This document shows positions 3,041-10,057 of a stretch of 64,000 nt of DNA, piece after piece. The translations under genes and the position numbers were made by a program. The notes under the pieces were generated by a model, which had not been told where the DNA came from, ran no database searches, and saw nothing but the letters and a program-made list of their open reading frames with translations. This DNA comes from Desulfatibacillum alkenivorans DSM 16219 (GTDB taxonomy: Bacteria; Desulfobacterota; Desulfobacteria; Desulfobacterales; Desulfatibacillaceae): the NCBI RefSeq assembly GCF_900142135.1, contig NZ_FQZU01000035.1:1-64000 (forward strand), given 5' to 3'. Positions within the stretch are counted from its first letter, which is position 1, and each line of letters opens with the position of its first letter.

Positions 3041-4339
3041 ATGAAAATCAACGGTTTTAAGGCTATCCTCATCGCCTTTTTAGCCCTGTGTCTTACAACT
3101 CCAGCATGGGGAACGATAAAAAAACAAACCCTGGATTTTGTCCTGGCGCCGCCCAGCAGTGAGGTGCAGGCCGGGGGGACGACGCGGTTTTATCTGTACG
3201 TGCATAATCCCGAAGACAGGGAGATGCAATTTCAGGGCAGGCCGGTTTTGAAATTCAGCCTGGGGGAATGGCCGGAAAACAAAACGCTGGAGGGGCGCCT
3301 GGCTTCTCCCCAATCCGGGGAGGCCGTCGCTATACCCGCCCAGGGCTTTAAAAAGCTGGCATACGACGTGGTTTTTCCCACGGATTTTTCGGGCCTGGCT
3401 GTTTTTAAAGTGGACGCTTATCACGCGCCGCCCCTGATGTTTGAAGTGGAGGAGGCCGTACCGGATCAGGCTCAACTGTTCACGGCAAAAGAGCCGGAAA
3501 TCAAGGTGGAAAAAGAGGGCGCTGAACAGGAAAACGGCGGAGATTTGACTCCGGCTTCTGAAGAAGGAGAGGGCGGCAAGGAAGTTTCGGTGGAAAGCCT
3601 GTTCGCTCAATATCAGCCCTATCTGACCAACCTGGCGCCCTACGAGCCCATGTATTTCCTGGTGGGCGCCGACCCCGAGGACAGCAAGTTCCAGTTCAGC
3701 TTCCGGTATCGCTTTTTCAAGCCTGAAGACGAATTCACACAAAAACACCCCTGGCTGGCCGGCCTGCATTTCGCCTACACCCAGACCTCTTTCTGGGATC
3801 TGCAGTCGGAATCCGCCCCCTTTAAAGACACCAGCTACAAACCGGAATTCTTCTATGCTTCCGGCAACTTAAAAACCCGCCCCGCCTGGATGCACGGCCT
3901 GTTTTACCAAGCCGGATTTCAGCATGAGTCAAACGGCCGGGATGAAGAAGCCTCCCGCAGCACCAACTTCCTGTACATTCGCCCCGGTTTTGCTGCAATA
4001 CACAAAAGAACCAAACTGGGCTTTAGCGCGTCCTCCAAAATTTGGGCGTATATAAACAACGAAGATGAAACCAACCCGGATCTGGCGAGCTATCGCGGCT
4101 ATTTCGACATCGACCTGAAAGTGGGCAAGGCTGACGGCCTTGTGCTGGGGACCAACTTCCGCCTGGCTCATGAAGGCGCCTCCGTCCAGGCGGACCTGAC
4201 CTATCCCCTGCATAACCTGATCTGGAAGCACCTGAACCTGTGCCTGCAAGCCCAATACGTCAACTCCCTGGCGGAAAGCCTGCTTCATTATGACGAAAGA
4301 ACCGAAGCCTTCCGCATCGGCTTCGCCATGGTGCGCTAA
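3041..4339 (+). CDS. pldA: outer-membrane phospholipase A (PldA/OMPLA family) with an extra N-terminal domain
   Basis: The enzyme hydrolyses acyl ester bonds of phospholipids in the outer membrane. A signal peptide covers residues 1-24. The C-terminal half (about 200-432) carries the OMPLA active-site signature QHESNGR and SRSTNFLYIRP, giving His295, Ser297 and Asn309 with the same spacing as the His142/Ser144/Asn156 triad of E. coli PldA. Residues 25-180 are additional: a beta-rich region followed by a Glu-rich linker. Such an N-terminal part is absent from E. coli PldA (about 290 residues). The protein ends in Arg rather than the usual terminal aromatic residue of barrels. It is monocistronic and ends at a strong hairpin. 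Confidence 0.87.
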   Translation: MKINGFKAILIAFLALCLTTPAWGTIKKQTLDFVLAPPSSEVQAGGTTRFYLYVHNPEDREMQFQGRPVLKFSLGEWPENKTLEGRLASPQSGEAVAIPAQGFKKLAYDVVFPTDFSGLAVFKVDAYHAPPLMFEVEEAVPDQAQLFTAKEPEIKVEKEGAEQENGGDLTPASEEGEGGKEVSVESLFAQYQPYLTNLAPYEPMYFLVGADPEDSKFQFSFRYRFFKPEDEFTQKHPWLAGLHFAYTQTSFWDLQSESAPFKDTSYKPEFFYASGNLKTRPAWMHGLFYQAGFQHESNGRDEEASRSTNFLYIRPGFAAIHKRTKLGFSASSKIWAYINNEDETNPDLASYRGYFDIDLKVGKADGLVLGTNFRLAHEGASVQADLTYPLHNLIWKHLNLCLQAQYVNSLAESLLHYDERTEAFRIGFAMVR

Positions 4340-4490: not shown

Positions 4491-5312
4491 TCATCCTTTT
4501 TGGGCGTGTTGTCGGACCATCAGATCAGTAACCCAATTGCTGATCCGGCCGGGGAAAAATTTAACCAAGTAATAGGACATCTTGGCCATCAGGCCGGTGA
4601 TGACCACAAACCGGTTTTTCTCGATTCCCCGGACAATGTCCCGGGCCACTTTTTCCAACGGCTCGATGCCGGCCATGAGCTTGACGGCCCGGTATTCCTT
4701 GGGCAGGGTTTTCAGTTCCTCCTCCACCATGGCCGTGTAAACTTCCGGCGGGCAGACCAGGGTCAGGCCCACGCCTTTGGTTTTAAGCTCCGGCCGCAGG
4801 CATTTTGCAAAGCCCACGGCGGCGAATTTGGAGGTTCCGTAGGCGGTGTAGCCCGGCAGGGCCGCCATGCCTGCCAAGGAGGCTACAATAACCAAATGCC
4901 CCTGATTTTGTTGCAGATAGGGCAGGGCGGCGGCGGTCATATTACGGACGCCGTAGACGTTGGTCCGCATAACCTGGTCAAACACCTCAAAGGGAGTGTT
5001 TTCAAAATAATTTCCAAACCCCTTGCCCGCGTTGGAGATGACCACGTCCGGCGCTCCTGCGGTTTCCACGGCTTTCTTTACGGCCTGTTCCACGTTTTTC
5101 GGATCGGTCACGTCCATTGTGTGGATTTCCACCTTTTGGGACAGGGCCTTGCGGTAGTTCAGGAGTAGGCTGCGGGCCTTTTCCAATTTTTCGGGATTTC
5201 TGGCAAACAGGACGATGTGGCAGCCTTTAGAGGCCAGCAAGCGGGCGGTTTCCAGGCCGATTCCTGAGGAGCCGCCTGTGATAAAGGCTGTCTTGCCGTG
5301 GAGATCTTTCAT
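4491..5312 (-). CDS. short-chain dehydrogenase/reductase, resembling 3-ketodihydrosphingosine reductases
   Basis: A 273-residue classical SDR. The NAD(P)-binding TGGSSGIG is at residues 12-19, NAG at 94-96, Ser145, and the catalytic YGTSK with Tyr158 and Lys162. An Arg after the second strand (FARNPEKL) suggests NADPH preference. The N-terminal half reads like the ketosphinganine-reductase branch of SDRs, which act on long-chain keto lipids; this subfamily call is tentative. The C-terminus has a hydrophobic stretch (YYLVKFFPG) that could contact membrane. Of two close ATGs, 5312 has the better-spaced AGGAAGGA. It starts 12 bp after the glycyl radical enzyme stop and is the last gene of that operon, suggesting that it reduces or oxidises a substrate or product of the radical enzyme. 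Confidence 0.8.
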   Translation of the reverse strand: MKDLHGKTAFITGGSSGIGLETARLLASKGCHIVLFARNPEKLEKARSLLLNYRKALSQKVEIHTMDVTDPKNVEQAVKKAVETAGAPDVVISNAGKGFGNYFENTPFEVFDQVMRTNVYGVRNMTAAALPYLQQNQGHLVIVASLAGMAALPGYTAYGTSKFAAVGFAKCLRPELKTKGVGLTLVCPPEVYTAMVEEELKTLPKEYRAVKLMAGIEPLEKVARDIVRGIEKNRFVVITGLMAKMSYYLVKFFPGRISNWVTDLMVRQHAQKG

Positions 5313-5324
5313 CAGCATTCCTTC

Positions 5325-8300
5325 CTACAGCCCGTATTGGGCCCTTTCGATCAATTCCAGTTGCATGTCCCGGTTCAGGGTGATGAAATAGGCGTTATAT
5401 CCGGAAATCCGCACAAGAAGATTGCGGTAATTCTCAGGATTGGCCATGGCGTCCTTAAGCGTTTCCGAGGTGACGGCGTTTAATTGCATTTGCATGCCGC
5501 CCAGATCGAAATAGGTTTTAACATACGAGAACATGTTGTCCACCGTCTGTTCGTGGGTATCGTTAGGTCCGGGCACTATTTTGACGTTAAACGCAATGTT
5601 GTTTGTAATGTATTTGGGCGAAAGCCTCGCCACGTCCCGGATGTTGTCCAGCAGGTTGGGCGAGGCGATGGGCTGAGGCGTAAGCCCCGGGGTGAAGGGC
5701 TTGCCTTCCAGTTTGCCCGAGGGCAGGGCGCCGCTTAATGTGCCGTATATCACGTGGTTGGACATGGACCAGAACCCCACGGTGTATTTGCCGCCCCGGT
5801 AGTTGGTATGGGTTCCGTAATGATCATGGGCGAACTTGGCGACCCGGTTGGCCATTTCCACGGCTTCCTCGCTGCCCGAACCGAACAAAGGAACCTTGTG
5901 GGTGATCAGGGCGTGAAGCGCCGGCTCCGACTGAAAATTATCGGCCACGGCCTTTTTCAGGTCGGCGAAGCTGACGGATTTGTCATCATACACCAGCTTT
6001 TTGATGGCCATGAGAGAGTCTGTCACGTCGGCCAGGCCGATGCAGGCGGCGCCGGAGCTATTGTACCGCGCCCCTCCGTGGGTGACGTCCGTGGCTGTGC
6101 TGATGCAGTCGTCAATGAGCGAGGACAGGAACGGGGTGGGGCGGATGGCTTGGTGGGCCAGCCCCATAAGGTTGTTGTATTCCACGGATTGATCGATCAG
6201 GAAGGCGAACTGCTCGGTGAAAGCCTCGAAAAAATCGTCAAAGGTTTTGAAGGCGCCTTGCGCGGGTTCGCCGGTCTCCGGCCCCAGCCGCCAGTTCATA
6301 AGCGGATGAAGTCCGTTGTTAAGCGCCATTTCCAACGCGGCCACCATGTTCATCATCTGGAAATTGGTGTGGCCGATATGCCTGCCCGATAGGGTGGGCT
6401 CCACGCAGCCGGTGGCGGACCAGTTGTTCAGGTCCTCCTGGGCGTAATTGAATTCCTTTAGGGACTCAATCACGGCCTGGTCGCTGTGGAGTGAGGGCGT
6501 GGCCGCCGTGATGAGGTTGACCTCGCACAAGCGCTTGAGATAGGCGTCGCTGTTCTTCTCCCTGTTATACCGGGCGTTTACGTTGGGATCCCGAATGCCC
6601 AGCATTTCCGTGACTTTCAGGAAAATGTAGGTCATGTCGTTCACCGCGTCCTCTCCTTCGGGAGTGACGCCGCCCAGGGTGATGGCCTGATCCGAGGAGC
6701 TTCCGCCGAAATACCAGTTGGCCAGGTCCGGGGTCAGGGGCAGATGGTCGGTGCAGCGCATAAACAAGCACCCCACAAGCTCGATGGCGTGTTTGATGTA
6801 GGCTTTCCGCTCCTTTTCATCGGAGATTTTTTCCAGATCCGCTTCGTAATAAGGCTGCAGCCATTGATCCAGGCGGCCCATGGACAGCCCGGCGTTGGTG
6901 TTTTCCATGTGCATGCCGACCCATGTAATCCACACGGCGTTGACGGCTTCGTCCAGGTTTCGGGCCGGATTTTCGATCACTTGGGCGCAGGCCTGGGCGA
7001 TTGTTTCCAACTCGGCCTTGCGTTTGGGATCGGTTTCCCGTCGAGCCTCTTCGGCCGCCTGGGCCGACAGTTTTTTGGAGTAGACGATCATGCCCTCCAT
7101 GGAGTGGATCATGCCTTCCAGCAGACCCTTTTCGCGCTCCGACAAGCCTTCCCGGCTCAGCTTCCCTTTGATTTCGGCTATGACGCCGGACGCGCCCATG
7201 GACAGGATTTTGGGGAAGTCCGGAATGGTATGGGAGAGAGCGGCCTGTTTGAAGATGAAGTAGACGGCGTAGCGTTCGTCAATGGCTTGGCACAAGGGTG
7301 ATTGGTAATTATACCTCACCCATTCCTTGAAGTTTCTATGGATAAAATATGGAAATACTTCGTGATGAAGCAGCCTGACCGTATCTTCCGAAACATCGTA
7401 GGGATTCAAGGAACGATGGGGAACCGTGTATAATTCCCCCCAGAGCATGGCGCCATGGGCGTCGGGATACACGATCACCCCGACCTCCTTGGTGGTGGAG
7501 GTTCCGGCCAGAAGATCGTCCTTGCGGATGATGGGCTTGCGGTTTTCCATGAGGTGCTTGAATGCCAGGCCCTGGCGCAATTCGGGTATCCAATCATTAC
7601 CCGAAGCGTCTTTTTCAAACCCGTGCTCCTTGAACCAGTCAGTCAGGATTTTCGGCCGCTCCGGGCAAATCTCCCCTTTTTGGGTAAAGTGGATGTCCAG
7701 AAATTTTGCCAGCCTGGGAAAATCGCTCAGGGAATATTGGGAGAGATACGGATCATCCAAAAATCGCACCCCAGGGTCCACCTTTTTTCCCTTTATTCGA
7801 TGGTTTTTTCTATCCAACAAGGCTTGGCTCAACTCCGGCTTGGAGTCAGGAACAAGCTCTTTGGCTTGTTTGGCCGAAGCCTGTTTTTCCTTTTCAAGGA
7901 GCTTGTATGCTTTCTTTTTTAATAGTAAATTAAGATAGAAAAACAACAAGTTAAGATATGTCTGGTTGCCCTGGGTCCGGAGTTCGCTTTTCAACAGCAT
8001 GAAAATCTGCTCCGTGGGCGTGCTTCCCAGGAGTTTGCGCACGGTCTTGTCATCCCGAAAGATCAGGGAGATGTCGCAGGGATCGGGCGCGATGGACGGG
8101 ACAAAGGCCTTGCCGTCCTTAAAGACGATGGAGGCGTTCAGGCTGTTGTTTTCCGTACGCAGGTTGGCGCTGAAATTCATCCACCCGTCCACGCTTTTAA
8201 GATACTTGTTCAAACCCGGCCGGAGGTTGAAATTCAAGGCCATGAGCCTGAGCAGGTTTTTAATGAGCAGGTTGGTGAAGGAAAACCCTGGTTTTGATGA

Positions 8301-8330
8301 CGAACCATTGGATTGGAATTGAAACAGCAT
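5325..8330 (-). CDS. glycyl radical enzyme of the dehydratase/lyase type with an N-terminal SCP2-like lipid-binding domain
   Basis: The 1001-residue protein is about 150-200 residues longer than usual glycyl radical enzymes. The catalytic core from about residue 185 has the thiyl-radical loop ATGCVEPTLSGR (Cys642, Glu644), GGARYNSSG at 752-760 and the glycyl radical motif VRISGYNAYF with Gly977. The GCVEP loop is that of glycerol/propanediol dehydratase and choline lyase enzymes, not the Cys-Cys of pyruvate formate-lyase. Residues about 35-140 look like an SCP2 sterol-carrier fold: a Trp-containing strand, FKDGKAF, a PDPCDISLIF strand and a hydrophobic helix. A basic linker (140-180) follows. 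GGAGGA precedes the ATG. It lies between its activase (41-bp gap) and an SDR. The substrate is unknown; I infer a hydrophobic one. Confidence 0.85.
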   Translation of the reverse strand: MLFQFQSNGSSSKPGFSFTNLLIKNLLRLMALNFNLRPGLNKYLKSVDGWMNFSANLRTENNSLNASIVFKDGKAFVPSIAPDPCDISLIFRDDKTVRKLLGSTPTEQIFMLLKSELRTQGNQTYLNLLFFYLNLLLKKKAYKLLEKEKQASAKQAKELVPDSKPELSQALLDRKNHRIKGKKVDPGVRFLDDPYLSQYSLSDFPRLAKFLDIHFTQKGEICPERPKILTDWFKEHGFEKDASGNDWIPELRQGLAFKHLMENRKPIIRKDDLLAGTSTTKEVGVIVYPDAHGAMLWGELYTVPHRSLNPYDVSEDTVRLLHHEVFPYFIHRNFKEWVRYNYQSPLCQAIDERYAVYFIFKQAALSHTIPDFPKILSMGASGVIAEIKGKLSREGLSEREKGLLEGMIHSMEGMIVYSKKLSAQAAEEARRETDPKRKAELETIAQACAQVIENPARNLDEAVNAVWITWVGMHMENTNAGLSMGRLDQWLQPYYEADLEKISDEKERKAYIKHAIELVGCLFMRCTDHLPLTPDLANWYFGGSSSDQAITLGGVTPEGEDAVNDMTYIFLKVTEMLGIRDPNVNARYNREKNSDAYLKRLCEVNLITAATPSLHSDQAVIESLKEFNYAQEDLNNWSATGCVEPTLSGRHIGHTNFQMMNMVAALEMALNNGLHPLMNWRLGPETGEPAQGAFKTFDDFFEAFTEQFAFLIDQSVEYNNLMGLAHQAIRPTPFLSSLIDDCISTATDVTHGGARYNSSGAACIGLADVTDSLMAIKKLVYDDKSVSFADLKKAVADNFQSEPALHALITHKVPLFGSGSEEAVEMANRVAKFAHDHYGTHTNYRGGKYTVGFWSMSNHVIYGTLSGALPSGKLEGKPFTPGLTPQPIASPNLLDNIRDVARLSPKYITNNIAFNVKIVPGPNDTHEQTVDNMFSYVKTYFDLGGMQMQLNAVTSETLKDAMANPENYRNLLVRISGYNAYFITLNRDMQLELIERAQYGL

Positions 8331-8371: not shown

Positions 8372-9289
8372 TTACCCCAGTTGAATGCCGGCTGCCAGGA
8401 AGGCCTCCCGGCAGGCCTGAAGCCTGTTTTTATCCAGAAAAGACTGCATGGCCGGGGCGTCGCCCCGGGAGTCTTTGACGCCGATCTTGAAATTTTTTTC
8501 TTGCCAAAGCGGGTGATAGGGCAGCACATCGGCCTTTTTCACGCCGCACTCCTGCAAAAAAGCAACGACGGCCCGCATGTTTTCATCCGAATCCGTAATG
8601 CCGGGAATCAAAGGCGTGCGCGGCAATATTTCCACGCCGCCTTCCTGATACAATTTGTTCAAAGCCTTAAAATTTTTAAGGATCACTTCGTTGGAGGTCC
8701 CGCAATACTCCTGGTGGTCAGCTTTGTCCATGATCTTGATGTCCATATAAATTGCATCGATATGGCGATAGATTTTTTCCAGAAAATCCTCCATGCGGAA
8801 CATGCCGCAGGTCTCCACCAGAACGTGAATTTCCTGCTCTCTAAAGGCCTGAACAAGGCGGCTCAGATAGTCCATGGACAAAGTGGGTTCTCCGCCTGAT
8901 AGGGTGACGCCTCCGCCCGAGGTCTTAAAAAAGGGCTTGTCCCGGGCCACTTCCCGGACAATGGCGTCAATCTCCATGACCTTACCCACCCGGGAGAGGG
9001 CGCCGGAAGGGCAGGCCTCTATGCATTGCATACACAGGGCGCATTTTTCCCGATCAATAAAAAATGGGTTGTCCGGCGAAAGAGCTTTTTCCGGACAGAT
9101 TTCCATGCATGTATCGCAATGCACGCAGTCTTTGGGATCGTAGGAGAGTTCTAGCTCCCGCCTTTTGCTTTCCGGGTTGTGGCACCACATGCAGGATAGG
9201 GGACACCCCTTGAAAAACACCACGGACCGTATGCCCGGGCCGTCGTCCAGGGAGTTTCCCTTGATGTCCAGGATCAAAGGTTCCTTCAT
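8372..9289 (-). CDS. glycyl radical enzyme activating enzyme (radical SAM)
   Basis: A 305-residue activase that would use S-adenosylmethionine and a [4Fe-4S] cluster to place the radical on Gly977 of the neighbouring enzyme. The radical-SAM motif CPLSCMWC gives Cys29, Cys33 and Cys36; GGE is at 132-134. A ferredoxin-like insert carries two further four-cysteine sets (55/58/61/65 and 83/86/89/93), as in the activases of glycerol dehydratase, benzylsuccinate synthase and choline lyase but not of pyruvate formate-lyase. It starts 11 bp after the tetR stop and precedes the glycyl radical enzyme, so the three are almost certainly one transcript. A direct partner assignment is well supported. Confidence 0.93.
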   Translation of the reverse strand: MKEPLILDIKGNSLDDGPGIRSVVFFKGCPLSCMWCHNPESKRRELELSYDPKDCVHCDTCMEICPEKALSPDNPFFIDREKCALCMQCIEACPSGALSRVGKVMEIDAIVREVARDKPFFKTSGGGVTLSGGEPTLSMDYLSRLVQAFREQEIHVLVETCGMFRMEDFLEKIYRHIDAIYMDIKIMDKADHQEYCGTSNEVILKNFKALNKLYQEGGVEILPRTPLIPGITDSDENMRAVVAFLQECGVKKADVLPYHPLWQEKNFKIGVKDSRGDAPAMQSFLDKNRLQACREAFLAAGIQLG

Positions 9290-9300
9290 AAAAAAAGCTC

Positions 9301-9981
9301 CTACGCAGTGGAAAGGCTGCGTTCCGGCAATTGAATCCGCTCCAGACGCCGTAAAAAATCCTCCCGGATTTCCTCCCGCATGCCGGGAACCAAATCCATG
9401 GGGCCGGAATGCATGTATTGAAGCAAGGTATTGTTATAGCTGGCTATAAAGCCATGCAGCCGCGTAAATATGGAAATCAGGACCTTTCGAGCGTCCTCTT
9501 CCCGGATAAAGAATCCGGGGGATGCGCAAGCCCCAATGGCGTCAACAAAAAGATCCACCATTTTTAGAGCAGCTTGCAATTCCAGCAGGGCGGCCGGCTC
9601 CATATCGCTGCCCACGTAATCGTTGTACTTGGGCACGTGCCATGTAAACATGAGGTTGTACGCATGGGACTCGTTCAACCCAAAATCCAGAAAGGCCGAA
9701 ACCATGGCCTCGATGCGGTCCAACGGCTCGTCTTGGGAATCCCGGGCCTTTTCGCATTGGCGATGGAGCCGGTTAAACCCCTTGGTGAGAATAGCCAAGT
9801 AAAGTTCATCTTTGTTTGTGTAATAATTATAGATGGTTTTGGCGGCGATTCCCAACCTGGCCGACAACTTGCGCATGCTGAAGCCCTCAAAGCCCTTCGC
9901 GGAGATCAGTTCCACGGCGTGAGCCAGAATATTCTCCCGAAATGCTTCCACTTCCTGCGGCGTGCGCGGGGGCTTGGGCAT
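9301..9981 (-). CDS. TetR/AcrR-family transcriptional regulator, first gene of the glycyl radical operon
   Basis: A 226-residue regulator with an N-terminal helix-turn-helix (about residues 12-60; MRKLSARLGIAAKTIYNYYTNKDELY is the recognition region) and an all-helical ligand-binding C-terminal part. An upstream in-frame start at 10035 exists, but the ATG at 9979-9981 has AGGAA at proper distance and begins MPKPPRTPQEV, typical for the family. It is the promoter-proximal gene of the operon, so it probably represses its own transcript through the dyad at 10058-10072. The inducer is likely an acyl-CoA or lipid-like molecule, judged from context only. Confidence 0.88.
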   Translation of the reverse strand: MPKPPRTPQEVEAFRENILAHAVELISAKGFEGFSMRKLSARLGIAAKTIYNYYTNKDELYLAILTKGFNRLHRQCEKARDSQDEPLDRIEAMVSAFLDFGLNESHAYNLMFTWHVPKYNDYVGSDMEPAALLELQAALKMVDLFVDAIGACASPGFFIREEDARKVLISIFTRLHGFIASYNNTLLQYMHSGPMDLVPGMREEIREDFLRRLERIQLPERSLSTA

Positions 9982-10057
9982 GGCGTATTTCCTATTTTGC
10001 AAAGGCCAAGAAATGAGATTTGGTTCGTCAATCAAGGCCGATTTGACGATAGATTAA

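Follow-up and report, generated by a model that had tools for sequence, protein, structure and literature searches.

A glycyl radical enzyme gene with an N-terminal extension

The window analysed here, that is, the whole stretch of 64,000 nucleotides (nt) at positions 1 to 64,000 of contig NZ_FQZU01000035.1 from Desulfatibacillum alkenivorans DSM 16219, encodes on its minus strand a glycyl radical enzyme (GRE) of 1001 amino acids (aa), in which about 200 aa, predicted to include a lipid-carrier domain of the SCP2 type, stand ahead of the radical core. Its open reading frame (ORF) begins with ATG, with GGAGGAAG shortly upstream of the start codon, and is the third of four genes that follow each other on this strand in the order TetR regulator, activase, GRE and short-chain dehydrogenase/reductase (SDR), with intergenic gaps of 11, 41 and 6 nt. 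The gene and its parts are the following.

5325..8330, minus strand: SCP2-fused GRE, 1001 aa (ORF, Pfam and predicted fold)
7911..8279, minus strand: SCP2-like domain, residues 18-140 (PF02036 matches of relatives and predicted fold)
5742..7682, minus strand: PFL-like radical core, residues 217-863 (Pfam, E 3.8e-166)
5382..5693, minus strand: Gly_radical domain, residues 880-983 (Pfam, E 9.2e-22)
6405..6407, minus strand: codon of Cys642, presumed thiyl radical site, after the GRE family
6399..6401, minus strand: codon of Glu644, presumed general base, as in GRE eliminases
5400..5402, minus strand: codon of Gly977, presumed glycyl radical site

The extension is predicted to adopt an SCP2 fold

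A preliminary description of this DNA had likened the extension, which it put at about 180 residues, to SCP2 lipid-carrier domains. The likeness stands, for a sequence slightly longer than claimed, but not by the profile search proposed to confirm it: the window protein lacks a match to PF02036 in Pfam even at E<=1. An SCP2 call from the window sequence alone was therefore dropped, and the claim rests on relatives and on the predicted fold. Among 24 aligned family members, full-length rows only, nine matched PF02036 (best E 1.8e-4); no other family had matches from two or more members. In a profile search of the PDB with the N-terminal alignment, rabbit SCP2 reached only E 1.1 and was outranked by a designed protein (E 0.94).

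Structure prediction with AlphaFold2 gave block means of pLDDT between 84 and 91 over residues 21-100 when the N-terminus was modelled in isolation from the 24-member alignment (74.7 for that model as a whole), and a full-length model with pLDDT 82.5 and pTM 0.87. When the N-terminal domain was compared with the PDB using Foldseek, the top 46 rows were SCP2 proteins, UbiJ, alkylsulfatases and YjcS, which we take to be alkylsulfatase-like (best E 6.6e-6). Pairwise superposition with VIA-align matched residues 18-136 to the C-terminal domain of Pisa1 with Z 12.6 and a root-mean-square deviation of 2.4 Å over 104 residues, and gave Z 11.7 against the SCP2-like domain of human MFE-2 (1ikt) and 10.8 against UbiJ. 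According to these models, residues 18-136 are an SCP2 fold, predicted as a separate domain, which answers one of the checks asked for in the preliminary description.

The closest structural matches are instructive, since the alkylsulfatases SdsA1 and Pisa1 also combine a catalytic domain with an SCP2 domain, although they are sulfatases rather than radical enzymes and carry the SCP2 domain C-terminally. The titles of alkylsulfatase entries in the PDB name the aliphatic ligands 1-decane-sulfonate and 1-dodecanol; SCP2 there accompanies a catalytic domain whose substrates are aliphatic, which makes the comparison apt. Human MFE-2 and SCP2, which act in peroxisomal lipid metabolism, share the SCP2 fold with the extension, but their catalytic domains are unrelated to the GRE core.

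The radical core resembles that of GRE eliminases

The core is intact, in agreement with the preliminary description: PF01228 and PF02901 score far over cut-off, and Cys642, Glu644 and Gly977 lie where they had been placed. All three residues are kept in the 113 relatives of the tree set, namely, 89/89 fused enzymes and 24/24 enzymes of a split type, described below, in which the extension is absent and SCP2 is encoded by a separate gene. The fold search with the full-length model was headed by glycerol dehydratase, Archaeoglobus fulgidus PFL2, propanediol dehydratase, N-methyl-hydroxyproline dehydratases, HypD and CutC, at roughly 25-29% identity. The A. fulgidus protein (2f3o, 776 aa) was also the top PDB match by sequence (377 bits, query residues 251-997), and it covers the core only. 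None of the NCBIfam equivalog cut-offs was reached, be it for HypD (407.5 of 1100 bits), CutC (378.5 of 1050), HpsG (372.5 of 1000) or PflD-type enzymes (352.5 of 1109), nor was that of the broader subfamily TIGR01774 (481.7 of 678.2 bits).

Thus, the window enzyme has in common with the GRE eliminases (glycerol and propanediol dehydratase, CutC, HypD) the barrel fold, the Cys-Val-Glu motif, the Gly radical motif and an adjoining radical-SAM activase, but it differs from them in its low identity, its added SCP2 part, its position in a separate clade (in a tree without glycerol and propanediol dehydratase) and two residues constant in the family. These are a Ser immediately before the radical Gly, found in 113/113 family rows where 26 comparison rows have Ala, and Trp854, which occupies the position of Tyr640 of glycerol dehydratase in 113/113 family rows and in 0/26 rows of CutC, HypD, HpsG, PflD, YbiW and Firmicutes enzymes.

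Pocket positions were mapped through an alignment to glycerol dehydratase, whose ligand residues we take to include His164, His281, Ser282 and Asp447. His164 corresponds to His367 of the window enzyme and is kept in 84/89 fused and 24/24 split rows. Among the 89 fused rows, the position of His281 mostly holds Ala (49), Thr (16), Val (12) or Asp (5); that of Ser282 holds Gly (71), Ser (13) or Ala (5); and that of Asp447 holds Asn (51), Gly (31), Ala (4) or Ser (3). This alignment says that the substrate would be held otherwise than glycerol is in glycerol dehydratase. For its part, the conservation of Glu644 favours an elimination rather than an addition to fumarate or a reaction of the pyruvate-formate-lyase kind.

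A split form encodes SCP2 in a separate gene

A search of the class with the N-terminal profile returned, in addition to fused frames of about 1000 aa, stand-alone SCP2-like proteins, which span 135-225 aa at the loci that were fetched. These 28 loci are a subset of those found in the class and phylum searches. A GRE gene lies directly upstream on the same strand in 27 of the 28, at a gap of -220 to +113 nt, and L233 is the single locus with a stand-alone SCP2 and no GRE found alongside. The partner GRE is split into two frames at L207 and L231 and truncated by the contig start at L197. Profile-profile comparison aligned the fused domain with the stand-alone protein over 118 columns (probability 99.0, E 8.4e-18), and 9/12 stand-alone proteins matched PF02036 at E<=1 (best 2.1e-4), the one from L169 scoring 22 bits against a cut-off of 21.3.

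The reverse test started from the enzyme, with a profile of 17 split-type GREs run on 291 class genomes; no more than three candidates were scored in each genome, at an E cut-off of 1e-210, a design that may miss distant or further relatives. Twenty-four matches exceeded 1200 bits, of which 23 had an adjacent SCP2 match, as judged by comparing coordinates by hand with the class search for the N-terminal domain, and one (G056) lay at a contig edge. The next matches, at 708-941 bits, were open frames of at least 900 aa with four exceptions, namely, two cut by contig ends (G242), one two-frame gene (G071, the same as L207) and one in G205.

Fused and split enzymes form one clade

For the phylogeny, 147 cores were analysed with FastTree and 53 of these rows with IQ-TREE. 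Family ORFs shorter than 760 aa were left out, a row was called fused when it exceeded 900 aa and had a match to the N-terminal domain, and split rows came from loci chosen via the SCP2 gene; these labels played no part in tree building. Each group was recovered as one clade, with FastTree supports of 100 for the fused rows, 94 for the split rows and 100 for both together, and IQ-TREE supports of 100/100, 96/93 and 100/100, respectively. The fused enzymes therefore group together, a point that the preliminary description had wanted checked, and their cores fall in no characterised family sampled. The closest rows outside the joint clade, L001 and L006, are uncharacterised GREs encoded by the same genome; for L001 with L006, and for L007 with L010, the tree program warned of meeting long branches.

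CutC, HypD and HpsG, represented by sequences above the NCBIfam cut-offs, as well as PflD and YbiW, all fall outside the joint clade; the tree has no glycerol dehydratase, propanediol dehydratase, isethionate lyase or arylacetate decarboxylase sequences. On these alignments, the fused and split GREs are a clade of their own, apart from the characterised families sampled (CutC, HypD, HpsG, PflD, YbiW). It follows from this joint clade that the link between GRE and SCP2 either dates back at least to the divergence of its two branches or arose twice, and the existence of a sister clade with a neighbouring SCP2 gene means that the pairing is no accident of a single fusion.

Distribution

The N-terminal domain recurs too often for a chance occurrence. 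It was found at E<=1e-5 in 86/340 genomes of the class, a count that also covers stand-alone copies, fragments and a small number of molybdenum enzymes; at E<=1e-6 in 44/395 genomes drawn from the phylum, partly overlapping the class sample; and at E<=1e-8 in 8/9 genomes of the family. Named matches include Desulfatibacillum, Desulfosudis, Desulfococcus, Desulfobacterium, Smithella, Syntrophaceae, one member of the Spirochaetota and one Oleiphilus metagenome-assembled genome (MAG; L034), which may be mis-binned. The nearest named relative, 83% identical, is from a Desulfatibacillum MAG. Genome G292 alone encodes as many as four fused paralogues, together with a split system.

The genome under study has ten GRE genes (11 matches, two of them in one frame), two with an SCP2 domain. 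The second of these (G000:C40:241294-243843; L148:8495-11461) is 44% identical to the first and branches more deeply; no TetR regulator, activase or SDR was seen in its operon. The SCP2-like profile also matched, weakly, the N-termini of further ORFs of about 1000 aa (L153:8422-11418, L154:609-3635, L155:8418-11519 and L156:8453-11458). That of L153 is a molybdopterin oxidoreductase of the pyrogallol-hydroxytransferase (AhtL-like) type, and L154 looks alike by eye. These bacteria may link SCP2 to further anaerobic enzymes.

Operon partners and other neighbours

In the window, the genes around the GRE are the following.

8372..9289, minus strand: radical-SAM glycyl-radical-enzyme activase with two Fer4 (4Fe-4S) stretches, adjoining the GRE as its cognate activase (TIGR02494, 297.6 bits, above the cut-off of 174.35)
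9301..10035, minus strand: TetR-family regulator (top NCBIfam row FasR, 49.3 bits, far under the cut-off of 330)
4491..5318, minus strand: classical SDR, 6 nt downstream of the GRE (Pfam and NCBIfam)
3041..4339, plus strand: phospholipase A1-type protein (PF02253, Pfam), a neighbour outside the operon

A phospholipase A1-type gene likewise adjoins the operon at the Desulfatibacillum MAG locus L012.

Operons were compared for the 81/89 fused and 22/24 split rows with 1.5 kb flanks on both sides, with genes called as longest ORFs, a procedure by which partners can be missed. The 81 fused operons contain an activase in 49 cases, a TetR regulator in 43 and a second SCP2-GRE in nine; classical SDRs occur in 15 and extended SDRs in 11. 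SDRs account for 21/241 operon genes versus 9/861 other genes at the same loci (odds 9.0; the genomes being related, p is indicative). At L121, L138, L139, L140, L142 and L161 a single protein (614-673 aa) matches SDRs of either kind; in the L013 copy of the L121 protein, Pfam sees both halves and PRK07201 matches two stretches (178.4 bits, cut-off 549).

Regulator types vary, from TetR to sigma-54 activators, PAS kinases and, at the single locus L030, a GntR/FadR-type protein. The 22 split operons contain SCP2 in 21 cases and an activase in 16. DUF6765 (PF20551) is encoded in 11 of them (for example, L214:5437-6531 and L171:9729-10835), and seven encode unnamed proteins in which a repeat-like unit is discernible by eye (L208:2809-4950, L231:1062-2906, L169:8202-9194); scanned against Pfam, those of L208, L203 and L169 gave zero matches. 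Downstream of the SCP2-GRE at L146 lies an aldehyde ferredoxin oxidoreductase-like gene (L146:3793-5778; PRK09849, 190.4 bits, cut-off 868).

Other neighbours, each at one or a few loci, were not used to read a pathway: BKACE (L016), enoyl-CoA hydratase and CoA ligase (L129), AMP-ligases (L128), ABC transporters (L135), hydantoinase (L030), amidohydrolases (L146, L169) and fatty acid hydroxylase (L034).

Proposed function and alternatives

Known GREs mostly convert small polar compounds or catalyse the addition of hydrocarbons to fumarate. Given the attached or neighbouring lipid carrier, we infer that the most likely substrate of the present family is amphipathic or hydrophobic, and our tentative proposal, in which we place somewhat less than even confidence, is a GRE eliminase of the dehydratase or lyase type acting on a hydrophobic, probably long-chain hydroxylated substrate. 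The SCP2 domain would take up the lipid-like molecule and hand it to the barrel, where, once the activase has generated the Gly977 radical, Cys642 would become a thiyl radical and abstract hydrogen from the hydroxyl-bearing carbon. Glu644 would accept the hydroxyl proton, and the adjacent group, be it hydroxyl, amine or ether, would depart to leave an aldehyde or ketone. Because Glu644 stands beside Cys642, and in view of known GRE-eliminase chemistry, a hydroxyl on the carbon that loses hydrogen and a neighbouring leaving group would both be required. With such a product, SDRs are natural partners where present, and the SDR of the operon would reduce or otherwise process it, under the presumed control of the TetR regulator. 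In favour of this proposal stand the predicted SCP2 fold, the regular pairing in the split form, the joint clade, the invariant Cys, Glu and Gly, the structural likeness of the core to dehydratases and CutC, the distinct pocket residues, the enrichment of SDRs and, each at a single locus, the aldehyde ferredoxin oxidoreductase-like gene of L146 and the FadR-type regulator of L030.

Several observations weigh against this proposal. SDRs are present in only 19/81 fused operons, 20/81 have none of the partners sought (activase, TetR regulator, SDR, second SCP2-GRE), and the neighbours of the split systems, DUF6765 and the unnamed repeat protein, indicate no single lipid pathway. The SCP2 gene of the split form lies 3' of the GRE gene, at the opposite end to the fusion, where SCP2 is N-terminal. 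SCP2 domains may also act as non-catalytic adaptors. In the full-length model, pLDDT falls below 50 in three stretches, residues 537-546, 855-891 and 972-986, the last being the glycyl-radical loop. As to the pocket, HypD, CutC and HpsG rows likewise do without the three glycerol-dehydratase ligands His281, Ser282 and Asp447, and Asp547 is frequent among fused rows (56/89); for these reasons the pocket residues signal a different substrate, not a hydrophobic one, and their use as a mark of hydrophobicity was abandoned.

Alternatively, SCP2 could be a tether or scaffold that docks the GRE, alone or with partners, at the membrane, while the substrate is small and polar. We consider this unlikely. 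In its favour, the last SCP2 helix is very hydrophobic in fused rows, with a mean hydropathy of 1.28 in the 64/89 rows caught by a motif search, a level that 1.1% of the 14-mers in the core attain; moreover, UbiJ, an SCP2 protein of similar fold, is presumably part of a metabolon. Yet the same helix shows only mild hydrophobicity in the stand-alone partners (mean 0.26 for 28 proteins), and a tether has no need for an SCP2 fold retained in both clades. UbiJ, among the closest SCP2 folds, also invites an analogy with isoprenoid or quinone-like lipids, in whose synthesis or repair the GRE might catalyse a step; the extended SDR at L016, with the hopanoid-associated HpnA as its best NCBIfam row (131.7 bits, cut-off 367.65), would fit. 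This we regard as improbable, since the N-terminal domain is unmatched in 254/340 class genomes, suggesting non-core metabolism, and the paralogues of G292 together with the variety of regulators fit peripheral catabolism. Synthesis of ether lipids was set aside as a function, a GRE being unneeded where Ger, a homologue of PlsA, already makes the ether lipids of D. alkenivorans (PMC11150832); the accessible part of PMC5552659 held no genes relevant to this question.

Regarding the chemistry, the enzyme might, instead of carrying out a 1,2-elimination, cleave a C-C bond of a fatty or aromatic acid derivative or decarboxylate it, which seems rather improbable. Arylacetate decarboxylases presumably retain Cys-X-Glu as well, and the nearest tree rows outside the clade are uncharacterised, which leaves the neighbouring chemistry open, but the decarboxylase models IAD and HPAD scored 254.5 bits (cut-off 1100) and 190.5 bits (cut-off 1150), and dehydratases and CutC head the fold search. 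Hydrocarbon activation by fumarate addition we rejected as most improbable. It would suit Smithella and Desulfatibacillum relatives, which we take to be hydrocarbon degraders, and the fumarate-adding enzymes (Bss, Ass/Mas, limonenylsuccinate synthase) belong to the same superfamily. Nevertheless, Glu is present in 113/113 family rows, unlike in L008 and L009 of the same genome, which have no Glu after Cys, lie far away on the tree and are assumed to be fumarate-adder-like from their motif and general biology (L008 gave zero NCBIfam matches at E<=1e-150), and the operon gaps in the window leave no space for small Bss/Ass-like subunits. The limonene enzyme is of the alkyl-/arylsuccinate synthase kind (PMC12583861).

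The interpretation put forward in the preliminary description, radical elimination or cleavage on a lipid presented by the enzyme's own carrier domain, is thus partly supported, and neither of the outcomes named there as refuting it came about. The parts are of known kinds, and the combination of GRE and SCP2 and the clade that carries it seem undescribed; our literature searches, whose coverage excluded preprints and most subscription papers, returned no report of a GRE with SCP2. In a wider and more tentative view, which we also deem somewhat less likely than not, the family would be a large undescribed GRE branch performing radical chemistry on lipids held by a fused or constant partner carrier, and would do without oxygen what oxygenases do at the start of lipid breakdown. 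In anoxic sediments, such enzymes might for example cleave alkylglycerol ethers, long-chain diols or amino alcohols of the sphingoid kind.

The pairing of GRE and SCP2 hints at a possible undescribed route for handling greasy molecules without oxygen. If this is true, radical enzymology would come to include lipids through a GRE clade that is coupled to a lipid carrier by fusion or adjacency, and candidate genes would now be named for oxygen-free steps of lipid breakdown in sulfate reducers.

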